Shown: positions 29,837 through 55,523 of the stretch, piece by piece
How positions within the stretch are numbered: position 1 is the first letter of the stretch
Layout of the letters: every line of letters begins with the position of its first letter
From: Lysinibacillus pakistanensis
GTDB taxonomy: Bacteria > Bacillota > Bacilli > Bacillales_A > Planococcaceae
NCBI RefSeq assembly: GCF_030123245.1
Contig: NZ_CP126101.1
Span: 928,501-992,500, forward strand
DNA: 64,000 nt
Direction: 5' to 3'
Made by a program: the position numbers and the translations under genes
Notes under the pieces: model-generated
Seen by the model: the letters and a program-made list of their open reading frames with translations, nothing else
Told to the model about the DNA's origin: nothing
Databases searched by the model: none

Positions 29837-29989
29837 TACTACTTTTCCTATTCCTCACTCTTTGATCGCCAGTAAAAATTCGTCTATCCTTACAGTCCTA
29901 ATAAAGGAAATATTAATAAGTTTTCTGCAAAAGATATGCCGTTGCATTCAAATTTTGTAAGTGATATGGTGGTACATGAGGTGAAATTT

Positions 29990-31327
29990 ATGGAAAAATT
30001 TGATATTGCAATTATTGGCGCAGGTCCTGGTGGCTATGTGGCAGCTATTTATGCAGCTAAAAGTGGCAAGAAAGTTGCTTTAGTGGAACGTCATAAAGTA
30101 GGAGGGGCCTGCTACAATGTTGGATGTATCCCTTCAAAGATTTTGCTGGAGCATAGTAAGCTTGTGCAGGAAATAAAACGTGGTAATGACTGGGGAATTG
30201 AAACATCTAAGGTAAATGTGAATTTTACACGGTTAATGCAGCGAAAGGACTCCTTGATTGAAGAACTTTTGGCCAATATTGAGGGTTATATTTTAAGCAA
30301 TCATATTACGTTTTACCGCGGTGAAGCTTCAGTTGCTAAAGACATGACCGTAACTGTCGGAAAAGCAATCTTTACTGCGACGGATATTATTTTAGCGACA
30401 GGAAGCAAACCATTTGTACCACCATTTAAAGGTCTAGAGTCAGCTAAATACTATACGACAGATACTTTTTTTAGTATTGATGAACTACCAAAACAGTTAA
30501 CTATTATTGGTGGCGGTGTTATTGCAGTAGAAATGGCATTTAGCTTAGCGCCACTTGGAACAAAGGTAACAATGCTGAATCATAGTGAGGATATTTTACA
30601 GACAGAAGAGCCAGACGCAAGACCTCTAATTCGACAAAAAATGAAAAAGCTTGGAATTGAGCTTGTCATAGATTTTCAATTTAACCATTTTAAAGACAAT
30701 GAAATTCATACATCTAAAGGAATTTATACATATGAAAATCTTTTATTTGCGACAGGTCGACGTCCAAATACAGAAATAGCTCAGCAATTGGGACTAGCAT
30801 TTGATGGTCGTTTAATTGCAGTTAATGAACACCTAGAAACAAGTCAGCCACATATTTACGCAATAGGTGATTTAGTTGGTGGCTATCAGCTAGCTCATTC
30901 AGCTAGTGCAGAGGGTATTCATGTAATCGATCATATTTTAGGGAATAAACCGTTATTAATTGACCAAGATGCTATTCCTCGTTGTGTTTATACACATCCT
31001 GAAATCGCGACATTTGGTTTATTAGAAAATCAGGTGAAGGTGCCATGTACGGTTATAAAAATACCTGTTCATTCCAATTCTAAGGCACTAATGGAGGGAA
31101 ATACAGAGGGCTTTGTGAAGCTAATTGCTACAAAAAAAGAAGGACATATTTTAGGTGCATGTGTAGTCGCTGATGGGGCAACAGAAATACTAAACTCAAT
31201 TTTAGCAACGAAAAATGCTGGTGGTACTGCACATATGCTTGCAAAAATGATTTTCCCACATCCAACCGTATCTGAGCATATTGGTGATGCGGCAAAAGGT
31301 ATTTTTGATAAAGCTATACATCAATAA
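29990..31327 (+). CDS. Dihydrolipoyl dehydrogenase (E3-like) flavoprotein
   Basis: 445 residues of the class I pyridine nucleotide-disulfide oxidoreductase family. FAD motif IIGAGPGGYVAA, redox pair GGACYNVGCIPSK (CxxxxC), NAD motif IIGGGVIAVEMAF, second FAD motif IYAIGDLVGG and the C-terminal HPTVSEH base of dihydrolipoyl dehydrogenases are all present. Start 29990 (MEKFDIAI) follows GAGGTG. It is not next to any E1/E2 genes, so it is an extra E3 paralogue; it may serve another lipoyl or thiol system. Confidence 0.88.
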   Translation: MEKFDIAIIGAGPGGYVAAIYAAKSGKKVALVERHKVGGACYNVGCIPSKILLEHSKLVQEIKRGNDWGIETSKVNVNFTRLMQRKDSLIEELLANIEGYILSNHITFYRGEASVAKDMTVTVGKAIFTATDIILATGSKPFVPPFKGLESAKYYTTDTFFSIDELPKQLTIIGGGVIAVEMAFSLAPLGTKVTMLNHSEDILQTEEPDARPLIRQKMKKLGIELVIDFQFNHFKDNEIHTSKGIYTYENLLFATGRRPNTEIAQQLGLAFDGRLIAVNEHLETSQPHIYAIGDLVGGYQLAHSASAEGIHVIDHILGNKPLLIDQDAIPRCVYTHPEIATFGLLENQVKVPCTVIKIPVHSNSKALMEGNTEGFVKLIATKKEGHILGACVVADGATEILNSILATKNAGGTAHMLAKMIFPHPTVSEHIGDAAKGIFDKAIHQ

Positions 31328-31333
31328 CTTATA

Positions 31334-31369
31334 AAATCTAGATTCTTTAAAAAATCATAAATGTAGATT
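31334..31369. repeat. Left flanking hairpin of noncoding element, copy 1
   Basis: 36 nt beginning AAATCTAGATTCTTT and ending ATGTAGATT. It matches the 36-nt hairpin at 32038-32073 with few changes, so both sides of the element carry the same sequence in the same orientation. The right copy is a perfect hairpin and this one is decayed. Confidence 0.7.
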
Positions 31370-32037
31370 GATGTTGTTGAAATACTATTTTGTCAAGGAA
31401 ATCAAGGTGGCAAATTAATAAGTATAGCCCTTTTTCAATACGAGGAGTTGACGACTGTGTGCTTTCCTGCTGAATCCCCGAGGAATCACTCAGTCTACAC
31501 TCCAATCAACCATTGCTCATAGTATTTTCATTAGCATTTCACATAAATTTATAGTGATAAATTGAAGTCTTAGCCCTCACTATTTTGCGCAAAAATGGAG
31601 CCTGATAATATTTTTCTATCGACTGCAATAAGTGATTTTTTATAAAGTTAGAAATTAGTTTTATGCATAAAAATAAAATGTAGGTTGACAGCTATAGAAT
31701 TGTACCACTATTCTATCCATTTAATGATGATGAGTAATATGCTTTTGCTTTACTTTTGAGGGAAGAAAATATTTAAAGTTCCACACTATTGCTGATTGGA
31801 GTGTAAGGCTACTCGACTCCCGTGGGATAGCGAGACAGACGAGAAACTGAGGCCAACACGATGTTGGTCACGAAGGCATTGTCACAGGAAGTGACGCACT
31901 TAGCCTTCGTTCCTCCAGCGCAGGAAGCGGCTCGTCGCTCGCCCACTGGAAAGCGAGTAGCCTGGAACGGAAATCACCTTCATTTGACTTAGTAGTGTTT
32001 ACAAAGAATCCCTTGACCATTTAGTTTTTCAACACTA
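31370..32037. repeat. Noncoding repeated element, copy 1 (about 670 bp)
   Basis: It is homologous along its length to 53373-53907 plus 55336-55489. The ends are imperfect inverted repeats: left GTTGTTGAAATACTA...GTCAAGG, right (reverse complement) GTGTTGAAAAACTA...GTCAAGG. The 3' part contains a GC-rich domain closed by GGCTACTCG (31807-31815) pairing with CGAGTAGCC (31954-31962). No frame longer than short stretches is open, so it encodes no protein. It is bounded by a duplicated hairpin. This makes it a MITE-like element or a mobile structured RNA. Confidence 0.75.
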
Positions 32038-32078
32038 AAATCTACATTCATTAAAAAATAATGAATGTAGATTTTTTT
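32038..32078 (+). terminator. Terminator; right flanking hairpin of element copy 1
   Basis: TCTACATTCATT and AATGAATGTAGA pair perfectly (7-nt loop), then TTTTTTTG. It is the right-hand copy of the duplicated flank. Confidence 0.8.
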
Positions 32079-52465: not shown

Positions 52466-53329
52466 ATGGGAAAAGAACGTATTGCATTTATTGGTACAGG
52501 CGTTATGGGCGCTAGTATTGTTAAGCATTTATTACACAATGGTCATGAAGTAACGGTTTATACTAGAACTAAAGAAAAAGCTGAACCACTTGTAGCATTA
52601 GGTGCAACTTGGGCTAGCTCTCCAGCAGAGGCATTTAAAAATAAGGATTTAGCTTTCACAATGGTTGGATACCCTTCAGATGTAGAGGAAGTATATTTTG
52701 GAGACAATGGATTATTTCAATCTGCTGAAACAGGCAATATCTTGATTGATATGACTACTTCAGAGCCGACATTAGCAAAGCAAATTTTTACTCATGCTCA
52801 AACGCTTGGGGTAGAAGCGTTAGATGCACCTGTTTCTGGGGGGGATATTGGTGCCCAAAATGGTACATTATCCATTATGGTTGGCGGCAGCAAGGCTACA
52901 TTTGATAAAGTATTAGCAGTTATGAAACATTTTGGTGAGAATATTGTTTATCAAGGTGAAGCAGGTGCAGGACAGCATGCTAAAATGTGTAATCAGATTG
53001 TTATTGCTTCTGGGATGATTGGTGTATGTGAATCATTAGCTTATGGTTTAAAAGCTGGACTTGATTTACCAACAGTATTACAATCGATTGCTTCTGGTGC
53101 TGCTGGATCCTGGTCTTTAAGTAATTTAGCACCTCGCATGATTAATGATGATTACGCCCCTGGTTTTTATATTAAACATTTTATCAAGGACATGAAAATT
53201 GCTTTAGATGAATCTAAAAAAATGGGGATATTGTTACCAGGTTTAACACTTGCTTATGAAATGTATGAGAAGCTTATTGAAGAGGGCTATGGTGAGTATG
53301 GTACGCAGGCACTTTTAAAAGCTTATTAG
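52466..53329 (+). CDS. 3-hydroxyisobutyrate dehydrogenase-family oxidoreductase (YkwC-like)
   Basis: 287 residues. NAD motif FIGTGVMGASIVKHL, the family box DAPVSGGDIGAQNGTLSIMVGG and catalytic Lys in GAGQHAKMCNQIVIA are intact, and the C-terminal helical domain has FYIKHFIKDMKIALDE. It closely follows Bacillus YkwC. Such enzymes oxidise beta-hydroxyacids with NAD(P)+; the physiological substrate is unknown. Strong site AAGAAGGAG. Its terminator is the left flanking hairpin of the noncoding element. Confidence 0.88.
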   Translation: MGKERIAFIGTGVMGASIVKHLLHNGHEVTVYTRTKEKAEPLVALGATWASSPAEAFKNKDLAFTMVGYPSDVEEVYFGDNGLFQSAETGNILIDMTTSEPTLAKQIFTHAQTLGVEALDAPVSGGDIGAQNGTLSIMVGGSKATFDKVLAVMKHFGENIVYQGEAGAGQHAKMCNQIVIASGMIGVCESLAYGLKAGLDLPTVLQSIASGAAGSWSLSNLAPRMINDDYAPGFYIKHFIKDMKIALDESKKMGILLPGLTLAYEMYEKLIEEGYGEYGTQALLKAY

Positions 53330-53338
53330 TAATATTAT

Positions 53339-53372
53339 AGAAAACCCGAAGTATAGGTACTTCGGGTTTTCT
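53339..53372 (+). terminator. Terminator; left flanking hairpin of element copy 2
   Basis: AGAAAACCCGAAGTA pairs with TACTTCGGGTTTTCT. It is identical, except for one loop base, to the hairpin at 55490-55523. Here it directly follows the dehydrogenase gene. Confidence 0.85.
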
Positions 53373-53907
53373 CATGTTGTTGAAATACTATTATGTCAAG
53401 GAAATCAAGGTGACAAATCAAAAAGTATAGCCCTTTTTCAAAACGAGGGGTTGATCTCCGTTCCGACTGAGTGCTTTCCTGGGGGCGTCCGATGAGCCGC
53501 TTCACTCGCGATTGCTCGCTCCAGGGTCTCATCTGTGACGCTGTGATCCCCAAGGAGTCACTCATTCTACACTCCAATCAACCATTGCTCATAGTATTTT
53601 CATTGGCATTTCACATAAATGTATAGTGATAAATTGAAGTCTTAACCATCACTATTTTTCGCAAAAAAGAAGCTGATTACATTTTTCTATTCGAAAGCAG
53701 TGCGACAGTAATAAGTGGCTCTATGTTTAGTTATAAAGTAGTTTTATGGACAAAATGTAGGTTGACAGCTATAGAATTTTACTACTATTCTATCCATTTA
53801 ATAATGGTGAGTAATATGCTTTTACTTTACTTTTGAAGGAAGAAAATATTTAAAGTTCTACACTATTGCAGATTGGAGTGCAAGGCTACTCGACTCCCGT
53901 GGGATAG
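53373..53907. repeat. Noncoding repeated element, copy 2, left part
   Basis: Homologous to 31370-31833. It starts TCATGTTGTTGAAATACTA and ends GGCTACTCGACTCCCGTGGG + ATAG, where the IS3-family element inserted. It contains about 70 nt near 53466-53550 that copy 1 lacks, including an inverted form of the GC-rich module. The right part continues at 55336. Confidence 0.75.
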
Positions 53908-53962
53908 TGAACTGCACCCAAAATATTGGACTTAAAAAATCTAATATAAGGGGGTGCAGTTA

Positions 53963-54469
53963 GTGATTTCTGATGAACAAAAATTAGCCGCTGTTATTGC
54001 TTACTTTGAAGAAGATGAAAGTACGTATCAGATTGCAAAAAGATTACAGATTGACCGACATTACATTCGATTATGGATTGAATTATATCGATATCATGGC
54101 ATCGAAGGAATTATTCGTCCTCAGGGGTACACGAATTATGAAGATTCTTTTAAAATAAAAGTAATTCAACACCTGATAGAGACGGGCGATTCGCTCTTAC
54201 AGACCGCTGCGAAGTTTAATATTCCTTCTCGTGAAACCGTTCGAAGATGGAAAAAACAATGGATGTCAAAGGCTGGAGAGGTGCTCTATCAAGTAGAAAA
54301 GGAGTGCCAATCGATGCCAAAAAAACATACCCCTGCGACCGATTTAAATGAGAAAACGATGGATGAGTTAAAAGAAGAAATTGAATATTTACGTATGGAA
54401 AATGCCTATTTAAAAAAGTTGAAAGCCTTAGCTCAAGAAAAGGATGCATTCAAACCAAAGAAAAAGTAA
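53963..54469 (+). CDS. IS3-family transposase OrfA
   Basis: 168 residues. Two helix-turn-helix units (EDESTYQIAKRLQIDRHYIR and DSLLQTAAKFNIPSRETVRR, IS150 type) and a C-terminal coiled coil (DELKEEIEYLRMENAYLKKL) for OrfA-OrfAB dimerisation. GTG 53963 lies 9 nt after AAGGGGG; another GTG at 53954 is too close. The frame continues into OrfB by -1 slippage at 54412-54418. Confidence 0.9.
   Translation: MISDEQKLAAVIAYFEEDESTYQIAKRLQIDRHYIRLWIELYRYHGIEGIIRPQGYTNYEDSFKIKVIQHLIETGDSLLQTAAKFNIPSRETVRRWKKQWMSKAGEVLYQVEKECQSMPKKHTPATDLNEKTMDELKEEIEYLRMENAYLKKLKALAQEKDAFKPKKK
54412..54418 (+). promoter_or_regulatory. -1 ribosomal frameshift site of the IS3 element
   Basis: A AAA AAG heptamer, in the right phase with OrfA (codons TTA AAA AAG). 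The -1 frame is open from here through the whole OrfB, giving an OrfAB fusion transposase. Confidence 0.8.
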
Positions 54470-54519
54470 GAGCTGTATATGAGCTAAGGCTGGATTTTCC
54501 TCTTCAAGCTCTATTAAAG

Positions 54520-55308
54520 GTGGCAAAACTAAAGAAAAGTACGTATTATTATCACCTTCAAAAATGGACAAAACCAGATAAATATCAAGAGATCAAAGAA
54601 CGAATCCAGACGCTTTTTCATCATCATAAGGGGCGTTATGGTTATCGTCGTATTTGTTTAGCCCTCCGTAATGAAGGATTTTTCATCAATCATAAAACGG
54701 TTCAACGATTGATGCAGGAATTGGGCCTAAAAGGGACGGTACGCCCTAAAAAATACCGCTCGTATAAAGGGACAGTGGGCTATGTCGCAGAGAATCTAAT
54801 TCAGCGCGATTTTGAAGCCACTGAACCAAATCAGAAATGGGTAACCGATGTAACTGAATTTAAAATGAATGGCCAAAAAATCTATATTTCAGCTGTATTA
54901 GATTTATTCAGTCGAGAAATTGTTGGATATGAGGTATCGAAGTCACCTAATTTTGAGTTAGTTCAACAGTCTTTTAAAAAGGCGTTTACGTATACAAAGT
55001 TACTGGAAAAGAATGACTTAATCATTCATTCTGATCAAGGATGGTTATATCAAATACCGCGTTTTCAAGAGTTATTAGCAACTTATGAAATCAAGCAAAG
55101 TATGTCACGGAAAGGAAATTGTTTAGATAATGCCGTGATAGAAAGCTTTTTTGGCATAATGAAATCAGAATTTCTGTATACCACTACGTTTAAAAACTAT
55201 GAAGAATTCAAAAAAGCGTTAGCAGACTATATCTATTATTACAATCATGAACGGATAAAAATAAAACTCAATGGAAAAAGTCCAGTTGAGTTTCGAAAGG
55301 TTTCTTAA
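54520..55308 (+). CDS. IS3-family transposase OrfB (DDE integrase)
   Basis: 262 residues from a GTG start; the open frame extends upstream to the slippery site. An HTH_21-like segment (HHHKGRYGYRRICLALRN) precedes an rve integrase core with catalytic residues in WVTDVTEFK (Asp), IIHSDQGWLYQ (Asp) and NAVIESFFGIMKSE (Glu). It catalyses IS circle formation and insertion as the OrfAB fusion. No damage is seen. Confidence 0.92.
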   Translation: MAKLKKSTYYYHLQKWTKPDKYQEIKERIQTLFHHHKGRYGYRRICLALRNEGFFINHKTVQRLMQELGLKGTVRPKKYRSYKGTVGYVAENLIQRDFEATEPNQKWVTDVTEFKMNGQKIYISAVLDLFSREIVGYEVSKSPNFELVQQSFKKAFTYTKLLEKNDLIIHSDQGWLYQIPRFQELLATYEIKQSMSRKGNCLDNAVIESFFGIMKSEFLYTTTFKNYEEFKKALADYIYYYNHERIKIKLNGKSPVEFRKVS

Positions 55309-55335
55309 AAAGTTCAAATTTTTGGGGTCAGATCA

Positions 55336-55489
55336 TAGCGAGACAGACGAGACCCTGCACGGAGCGTCAGCGCAGGAAGCGGCTCGTCGCTCGCCCACTG
55401 GAAAGCGAGTAGCCTGGAACGGAAATCACCTTTATTTTGGCTAAATATTCACATAGAGTCCCTTGACTATTTAGTTTTTCAACACTATG
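55336..55489. repeat. Noncoding repeated element, copy 2, right part
   Basis: Homologous to 31828-32037, but missing about 55 nt that copy 1 has. It includes GCAGGAAGCGGCTCGTCGCT and CGAGTAGCC (55406-55414), which would pair with GGCTACTCG at 53884-53892 across the IS, and the right end CCCTTGACTATTTAGTTTTT + CAACACTA. Confidence 0.75.
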
Positions 55490-55523
55490 AGAAAACCCGA
55501 AGTATTGGTACTTCGGGTTTTCT
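55490..55523. terminator. Right flanking hairpin of element copy 2
   Basis: AGAAAACCCGAAGTA pairs with TACTTCGGGTTTTCT, the duplicate of 53339-53372. Confidence 0.82.

Follow-up and report, generated by a model that had tools for sequence, protein, structure and literature searches.

Target hairpins duplicated around a short IS1182-type element in the genome of Lysinibacillus pakistanensis

Two hairpin-flanked element copies in the window

The stretch of DNA analyzed here, referred to as the window, comprises 64,000 nt of Lysinibacillus pakistanensis and covers positions 928501-992500 of a 5.25-Mb single-contig genome (G000). It contains two copies of a short element, each located between two copies of a hairpin (Table 1). 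The gene 5' of the left hairpin of copy 1 (29936-31327) is dihydrolipoyl dehydrogenase-like, the one 5' of the left hairpin of copy 2 (52466-53329) is 2-hydroxy-3-oxopropionate reductase-like with a score under the cut-off of the model. Coordinates and alignments agree with the original prediction that both copies are homologous and bracketed by hairpins, and that the hairpins of one copy are unlike those of the other. Of the two hairpin lengths given there, 34 nt is correct for one copy, but the 36 nt given for the other has to be corrected, as the repeated unit measures 34 nt at both sites.

Table 1. Features of the two element copies and their flanks, in window coordinates
Feature	Position	Strand	Remarks
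Left target-hairpin copy of copy 1, decayed	31336..31369	.	34 nt
Putative non-autonomous IS1182-type element, copy 1	31370..32039	+	left end GATGTTGTTGAAATACTA, right end TAGTTTTTCAACACTA(AA)
Bacillaceae-1 RNA motif (RF01690), within element copy 1	31853..31919	-	69.6 bits, threshold 35
Right target-hairpin copy of copy 1, then T tract	32040..32073	.	34 nt
Left target-hairpin copy of copy 2	53339..53372	.	34 nt
Element copy 2, split by an IS3-family insertion sequence	53373..55489	+	
Nested IS3-family insertion sequence in copy 2	53908..55335	+	ORFs 53954-54469, 54520-55308
Right target-hairpin copy of copy 2, then T tract	55490..55523	.	34 nt

Copy 1 is among the poorer examples of its family: the left hairpin is decayed and the outermost bases are altered. 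Its hairpin pair is identical at 30 of 34 positions, the left member folding with -2.5 and the right one with -15.2 kcal/mol. The right limit lies at 32037 or 32039 depending on whether the terminal (AA) is counted. No ORF of at least 80 aa is listed within this copy, in line with the earlier statement that no protein is encoded. In copy 2 the hairpins are better conserved (33/34 identical), and the limits of the nested IS3-family insertion were placed by visual comparison with copy 1.

Inside, copy 1 is a mosaic that has blocks in common with repeats of other genomes in the genus. The Bacillaceae-1 motif of the Rfam collection found there sits in a mobile element, so this RNA family may be spread partly as repeat cargo and not as a free sRNA gene.

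Element family, flanking hairpins and empty sites

Searching the own genome with copy 1 yielded 66 matching pieces. With the conserved end motif 94 end-like sites were detected at up to 2 mismatches, compared to 2 with a reversed-pattern control. From these we obtained 42 complete copies, in which both ends are present and correctly oriented, with 320-2554 bp between the end motifs; one-ended or degenerate copies (L094, L101, L109, L112) were excluded. Without nested insertions the element measures 0.32-0.78 kb. The ends had earlier been described as imperfect and inverted, which is correct, but their sequence is better written as CATGTTGTTGAAATACTA... and ...TAGTTTTTCAACACTATG for the family as a whole.

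Seven copies exceed 1.9 kb. We considered that they might carry passenger genes and rejected this, as the additional sequence belongs to nested IS3 (three copies), IS4 (three copies) and a group II intron (one copy). The IS3-family insertions are found in copy 2, L099 and L105, that of L099 being reversed. The IS4-family insertions of L095, L100 and L102 occupy the same interior position. Movement of an IS4-enlarged element as a unit was considered and dropped, since the insertion in L102 has the opposite orientation and a hot spot is equally likely. The interior of the element seems to hold hot spots for insertion. In L106 (951-2213) the element copy is split by the group II intron, which carries reverse transcriptase and maturase domains. 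According to the ORF list of copy 1 and inspection of the seven long copies, the element has no transposase gene of its own, as is typical of IS1182-type MITEs.

For each of the 42 copies we aligned the 60 bases to the left with the 60 bases to the right. In 39 copies a direct repeat of 18-49 bp was found, which is specific for the site and is itself a stem-loop that folds on at least one side. The repeat abuts the element without gap on both sides in 35 of these 39 cases and is at most 3 nt away in the other four, and both members of the pair are letter-identical in 24. The median score of the flank-to-flank alignment was 26.5 for the 42 copies versus 6 for 1722 swapped pairs, of which two reached 15. 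The centre of the repeat coincides with the single best palindrome centre in 34/39 copies; in four the two differ by half a base, and in one (L016) there is a tie with two other centres. Complementarity ends at the edge of the repeat in 24 copies and runs 1-6 bp past it in the other 15, thus the cut would not always be located at the extreme foot of the stem. A full hairpin pair is lacking in three copies only: L093 (at 198406) misses the right hairpin, L111 misses the left half and L108 is composite. All counts over 39 omit these three, two of which are accordingly damaged on one side.

We also looked for unoccupied counterparts of the insertion sites. For 11 complete sites and a half site we joined the flanks and compared them to 32 genomes from the genus, among them the own genome. 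The 13 hits that were aligned represent 8 of the 11 sites; each has a single hairpin without the element, and a pair of hairpins preceding insertion was seen in none of them. Identity across the junction reached 92-94% in the best cases. At the empty sites of window copy 2 and L018 the hairpin of the relative has a longer loop. Two sites are occupied in G004, a near relative: that of L024 (L196), which is empty in three other genomes, and that of L106, where an element of this kind sits at the same hairpin (L195). The alignments cover sites other than those of L027, L012 and L106. For copy 1, the dihydrolipoyl dehydrogenase gene of the window has 77-87% matches at 13 loci of named Lysinibacillus genomes, where the orthologous site mostly shows a different terminator or none; at one of them (L056) it holds a single hairpin, which is unlike that of copy 1.

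A hairpin at each end of 39 of the 42 copies could also mean that the element itself is equipped with a terminator at both ends and that no target is duplicated. This is refuted by the finding that the hairpins are locus-specific and equal to the hairpin of the same-locus empty site in related genomes, and we give it almost no credence. The claims of the original prediction that the flank came from the target and was duplicated, and that transposition creates a long target duplication, are both borne out by the locus-specific repeats and the single-hairpin empty sites.

The next question concerns the nature of the target. An A-rich tract on the left or a T-rich tract on the right (at least 5 in 8) is located next to 30 of 39 targets, whereas five control distances gave 4-12 of 39. 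The 3' end of an ORF (frames of at least 90 codons) lies within 200 nt of 35 of the 42 copies, 13 of which are located between convergent frames. With respect to the terminator the element is found in both orientations without preference (11 vs 10), as expected for a symmetric target. One copy of the helper insertion sequence described below (L115) resides in a 14-bp palindrome reached from both sides by open frames on the same strand, and is apparently inside a gene. The hairpin at L115 is very weak (-0.4 kcal/mol), so extrusion is doubtful there. Since 9 of 39 targets are without an A/T tract and L115 apparently lies in a gene, we read the target as the hairpin and not as termination itself, although most targets look like terminators. 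The proposed targeting of rho-independent terminators was therefore slightly too narrow.

The terminator-like appearance of most targets and the proximity to ORF 3' ends would also be explained by insertion guided near terminators by sequence or by a protein, for instance by coupling to termination, followed by duplication in another process such as recombination between neighboring copies. However, in 38 of 39 copies, and without ties, the centres of repeat and palindrome lie no more than half a base apart; the hairpins without an A/T tract, the helper copy apparently within a gene and the lack of orientation bias point in the same direction, and the position near 3' ends may mirror the distribution of hairpins and of tolerated insertion sites. 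We consider such guided insertion improbable and continue with the hairpin as the target.

A candidate helper insertion sequence

The original prediction had suggested a search for a helper transposase with the same ends, and an IS1182-family insertion sequence of this kind was found in the same genome. PF13751 has 8 matches there, three of which, in 473-codon open frames, lie just inside the three GTTGAAATAAGATTATGTCAATG-type end motifs listed. The protein is assigned to the IS1182 family by NCBIfam (NF033551, 289.8 bits at a cut-off of 270), and PF13751 and PF05598 both score above cut-off. Eight copies of the insertion sequence were examined, three in G000 and five in G004, and each measures 1552 bp; a partial ninth copy exists. 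Its layout is that of the IS1182 family, with a single gene for a DDE type transposase of about 464 aa between the imperfect terminal inverted repeats CATTCTGTTGAAAAAC / CATAGTGTTGAAATAA.

The left end of the element matches the right end of the insertion sequence at 26 of 30 positions and its right end matches the left end at 23 of 30, while the cross pairings gave 19 and 21 of 30. Only these approximately 30 terminal bases are common to the element and the helper. Exact hairpin repeats of 14-37 nt flank 5 of the 8 helper copies. The remaining three are without a repeat on both sides; one is composite, one lies beside another insertion sequence and one is unexplained.

The match of the ends to a DDE insertion sequence and the long target duplication argue against an RNA-mediated element, for example one resembling group II introns, which would home to terminator stems with its folded interior as the active RNA. 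Group IIC introns insert near terminators, and the interior of copy 1 indeed folds into more stable structures than shuffled sequences (z -6.45 and -4.68 for the two strands, 20 shuffles each), perhaps owing to palindromic repeats nested inside it. At Rfam gathering thresholds Bacillaceae-1 was the only RNA family found in the window, with no group II intron or other large RNA; at E values up to 1, five loci gave Bacillaceae-1 twice, one sub-threshold SmY match and again no group II intron or other large RNA. An RNA-mediated element appears extremely improbable to us, and a DNA transposon served by the helper is the reading followed here.

Four of the 8 helper copies adjoin an element copy with one hairpin in between (L102 and L108 in G000, L113 and L114 in G004). 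A duplicated hairpin may attract further insertions. In G004 the genes flanking the L102 site map to approximately 4.17 and 2.12 Mb, and each is adjacent to a copy of another insertion sequence (IS612, described below; L117, L122), which suggests a rearrangement between IS612 copies.

In L108 (2090-4480; G000:C1:4704590-4706980) the order is hairpin A, insertion sequence, hairpin B, element, hairpin A. The inner hairpin B equals the target hairpin flanking the element at locus L003. The element of L108 is closest to that of L013 (99.7%), and the one at L003 comes fifth (98.6%). The simplest account is that insertion sequence and element moved as a unit by means of one end of the insertion sequence and one end of the element. 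Use of such a mixed pair of ends would make mobilisation in trans by the helper very likely, a reading that we regard as strongly supported.

Terminal repeats shared with a helper, and many copies with target duplications and empty sites, are also features of MITEs. The ends, the candidate helper, the hairpin-sized duplications and the single-hairpin empty sites are read directly from the genomes, and the element is very probably a non-autonomous, MITE-like transposon that is moved in trans by the IS1182-family DDE transposase of the 1.55-kb insertion sequence, with a target duplication defined by DNA structure.

Related transposases, proposed mechanism and known systems

When 200 genomes from the order were searched, relatives of the helper protein were found in 48, which belong to 11 of 17 genera. 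At 30 loci with related transposases from 8 genera of the family, two of which (L219, L248) are elements already counted elsewhere, a palindromic flanking repeat was present in 23 cases compared to 3 of 870 swapped right flanks; any repeat was seen in 78 of the 870 controls. At the other seven loci no palindromic repeat of at least 12 bp was found. Of 15 loci from relatives besides G004 that were inspected for ends of this type, seven carry both ends between hairpins (five in G011 and two in G012, both genomes of the genus), and no pair of ends between hairpins was found at the other eight.

Other members of the IS1182 family were compared as well; names such as IS535 and IS612 are our own labels derived from frame lengths. 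A second IS1182 element with a 451-aa protein (G007) is flanked by hairpin repeats of 27-30 nt in 4/4 copies. IS514 duplicated 9-11 bp at the tip of the hairpin in 4/4 copies. Repeats of 9-11 bp were also found in all four copies of IS581, the targets of which are mixed, two being clear hairpin tips and two not. IS492 has constant repeats of 9-10 bp (7/7) and its target folds are not clean hairpins. All seven IS492 copies (L133-L139, G006) are located in apparent members of repeat families of the genus. Among copies with both ends found, no repeat of at least 5 bp was detected for IS535 (4/5), IS612 (5/5) and IS602 (2/2); the exception is the IS535 copy L124 with a 6-bp repeat overlapping its ends, and a sixth IS612 stretch has no end pair. 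At one site each, the empty site of a relative, clean for IS535 (L125, G004) and less clean for IS602 (L149, G007), indicates that a terminator-like hairpin was replaced by the insertion sequence.

The three outcomes correspond to three clades, with support of 0.99-1.0, in a tree built from 35 transposases. Members of the whole-hairpin clade were chosen for their similarity to the helper; the clade includes six loci at which no repeat was found, and is compared with only three loop-type and three no-duplication elements. Within one genus, three clades thus show three outcomes: the whole hairpin is duplicated, 9-11 bp around its tip are duplicated, or the hairpin is replaced without duplication.

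A stagger that follows the length of the hairpin is hard to obtain on linear DNA and is simple if the feet of the stem are neighbors in an extruded hairpin or cruciform. We propose that the target hairpin is extruded in this manner, which would bring its two feet side by side. A complex of fixed geometry acting on the adjacent feet would then produce a stagger equal to the hairpin length. In the helper clade the attack would take place at the phosphates of the 5' feet, and gap repair would leave one complete hairpin on each side.

DDE transposases are usually taught as having a fixed stagger and hence a fixed target duplication. Palindromic targets are also used by REP- or hairpin-targeting insertion sequences such as IS1397, ISKpn1, the IS1111/IS110 types and IS200/IS605, but these have transposases of other families and short or no duplications. 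ISfinder lists direct repeats of 0-60 bp for IS1182, so curators may already be aware of long palindromic repeats.

For the IS1182 family in staphylococci, IS1272 and TnSha1/TnSha2 are described as targeting stem-loops of whatever sequence, often terminators (Furi 2016, PMC4923244; Wan 2017, PMC5678879). In the passages available, these elements share with the present system the family, the stem-loop target and insertion at the base of the stem. IS1272 is reported there to delete or replace the stem-loop without target duplication (Wan 2017, PMC5678879), whereas the Lysinibacillus element duplicates the whole stem-loop, and replacement of the IS1272 kind is not what its copies show. The same work drew two further pathways (b, c): joining at the 5' feet, by which the stem-loop would be duplicated, and joining at the loop, by which the loop would be duplicated. 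Our data fit the 5'-feet pathway for the helper clade and the loop pathway for the loop clade.

MITEPye1 of Paracoccus yeei (PMC11578231) and the ISMac2-type MITEs (PMC3852290) are likewise short and transposase-less, carry IS1182-family ends and were proposed to move in trans. As far as the passages concerned tell, the Lysinibacillus element, with 42 complete copies and 0.32-0.78 kb without nested insertions, is longer than both. For ISMac2-type MITEs the entries apparently give direct repeats of 4 bp and 0 bp, and the passages on MITEPye1 mention direct repeats and do not describe hairpins, in contrast to the 18-49 bp hairpins observed here. Hairpin targeting by IS1182 elements and the existence of IS1182-type MITEs are, by these sources, already known (PMC4923244, PMC11578231, PMC3852290). 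In the accessible parts of the open-licence literature, duplication of the whole hairpin by IS1182 elements was found only as the hypothetical pathway of Wan 2017 (PMC5678879); neither its occurrence on this scale, nor its empty sites, nor a division of outcomes among three clades turned up there.

We lean slightly towards the broader view that IS1182-family transposases read the shape of the extruded hairpin and have no fixed duplication length, different clades attacking different points of the hairpin with the same chemistry and with three outcomes. If true, attack at the 5' feet would duplicate the whole stem-loop, attack at the tip would duplicate 9-11 bp and attack at the 3' feet would replace the stem-loop. 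Because the duplication of 14-49 bp keeps in step with the hairpin, recognition of DNA structure is indicated. The repeats would represent natural evidence, readable from sequence, of hairpin or cruciform extrusion at terminators, and they provide many examples for a pathway that, in the passages available, was drawn for IS1272 beside the observed one. The three-clade pattern offers a direct comparative route to the determinants in the transposase. For genome biology, the mode of insertion is one in which both sides of the insert keep a hairpin. As the gene-proximal hairpin is now followed by the end of the element and not by the T tract, transcription may continue into the element and end at the distal hairpin. 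Terminators would, if the broader view is true, serve as refuges that survive both the whole-hairpin and the tip-duplication outcome.
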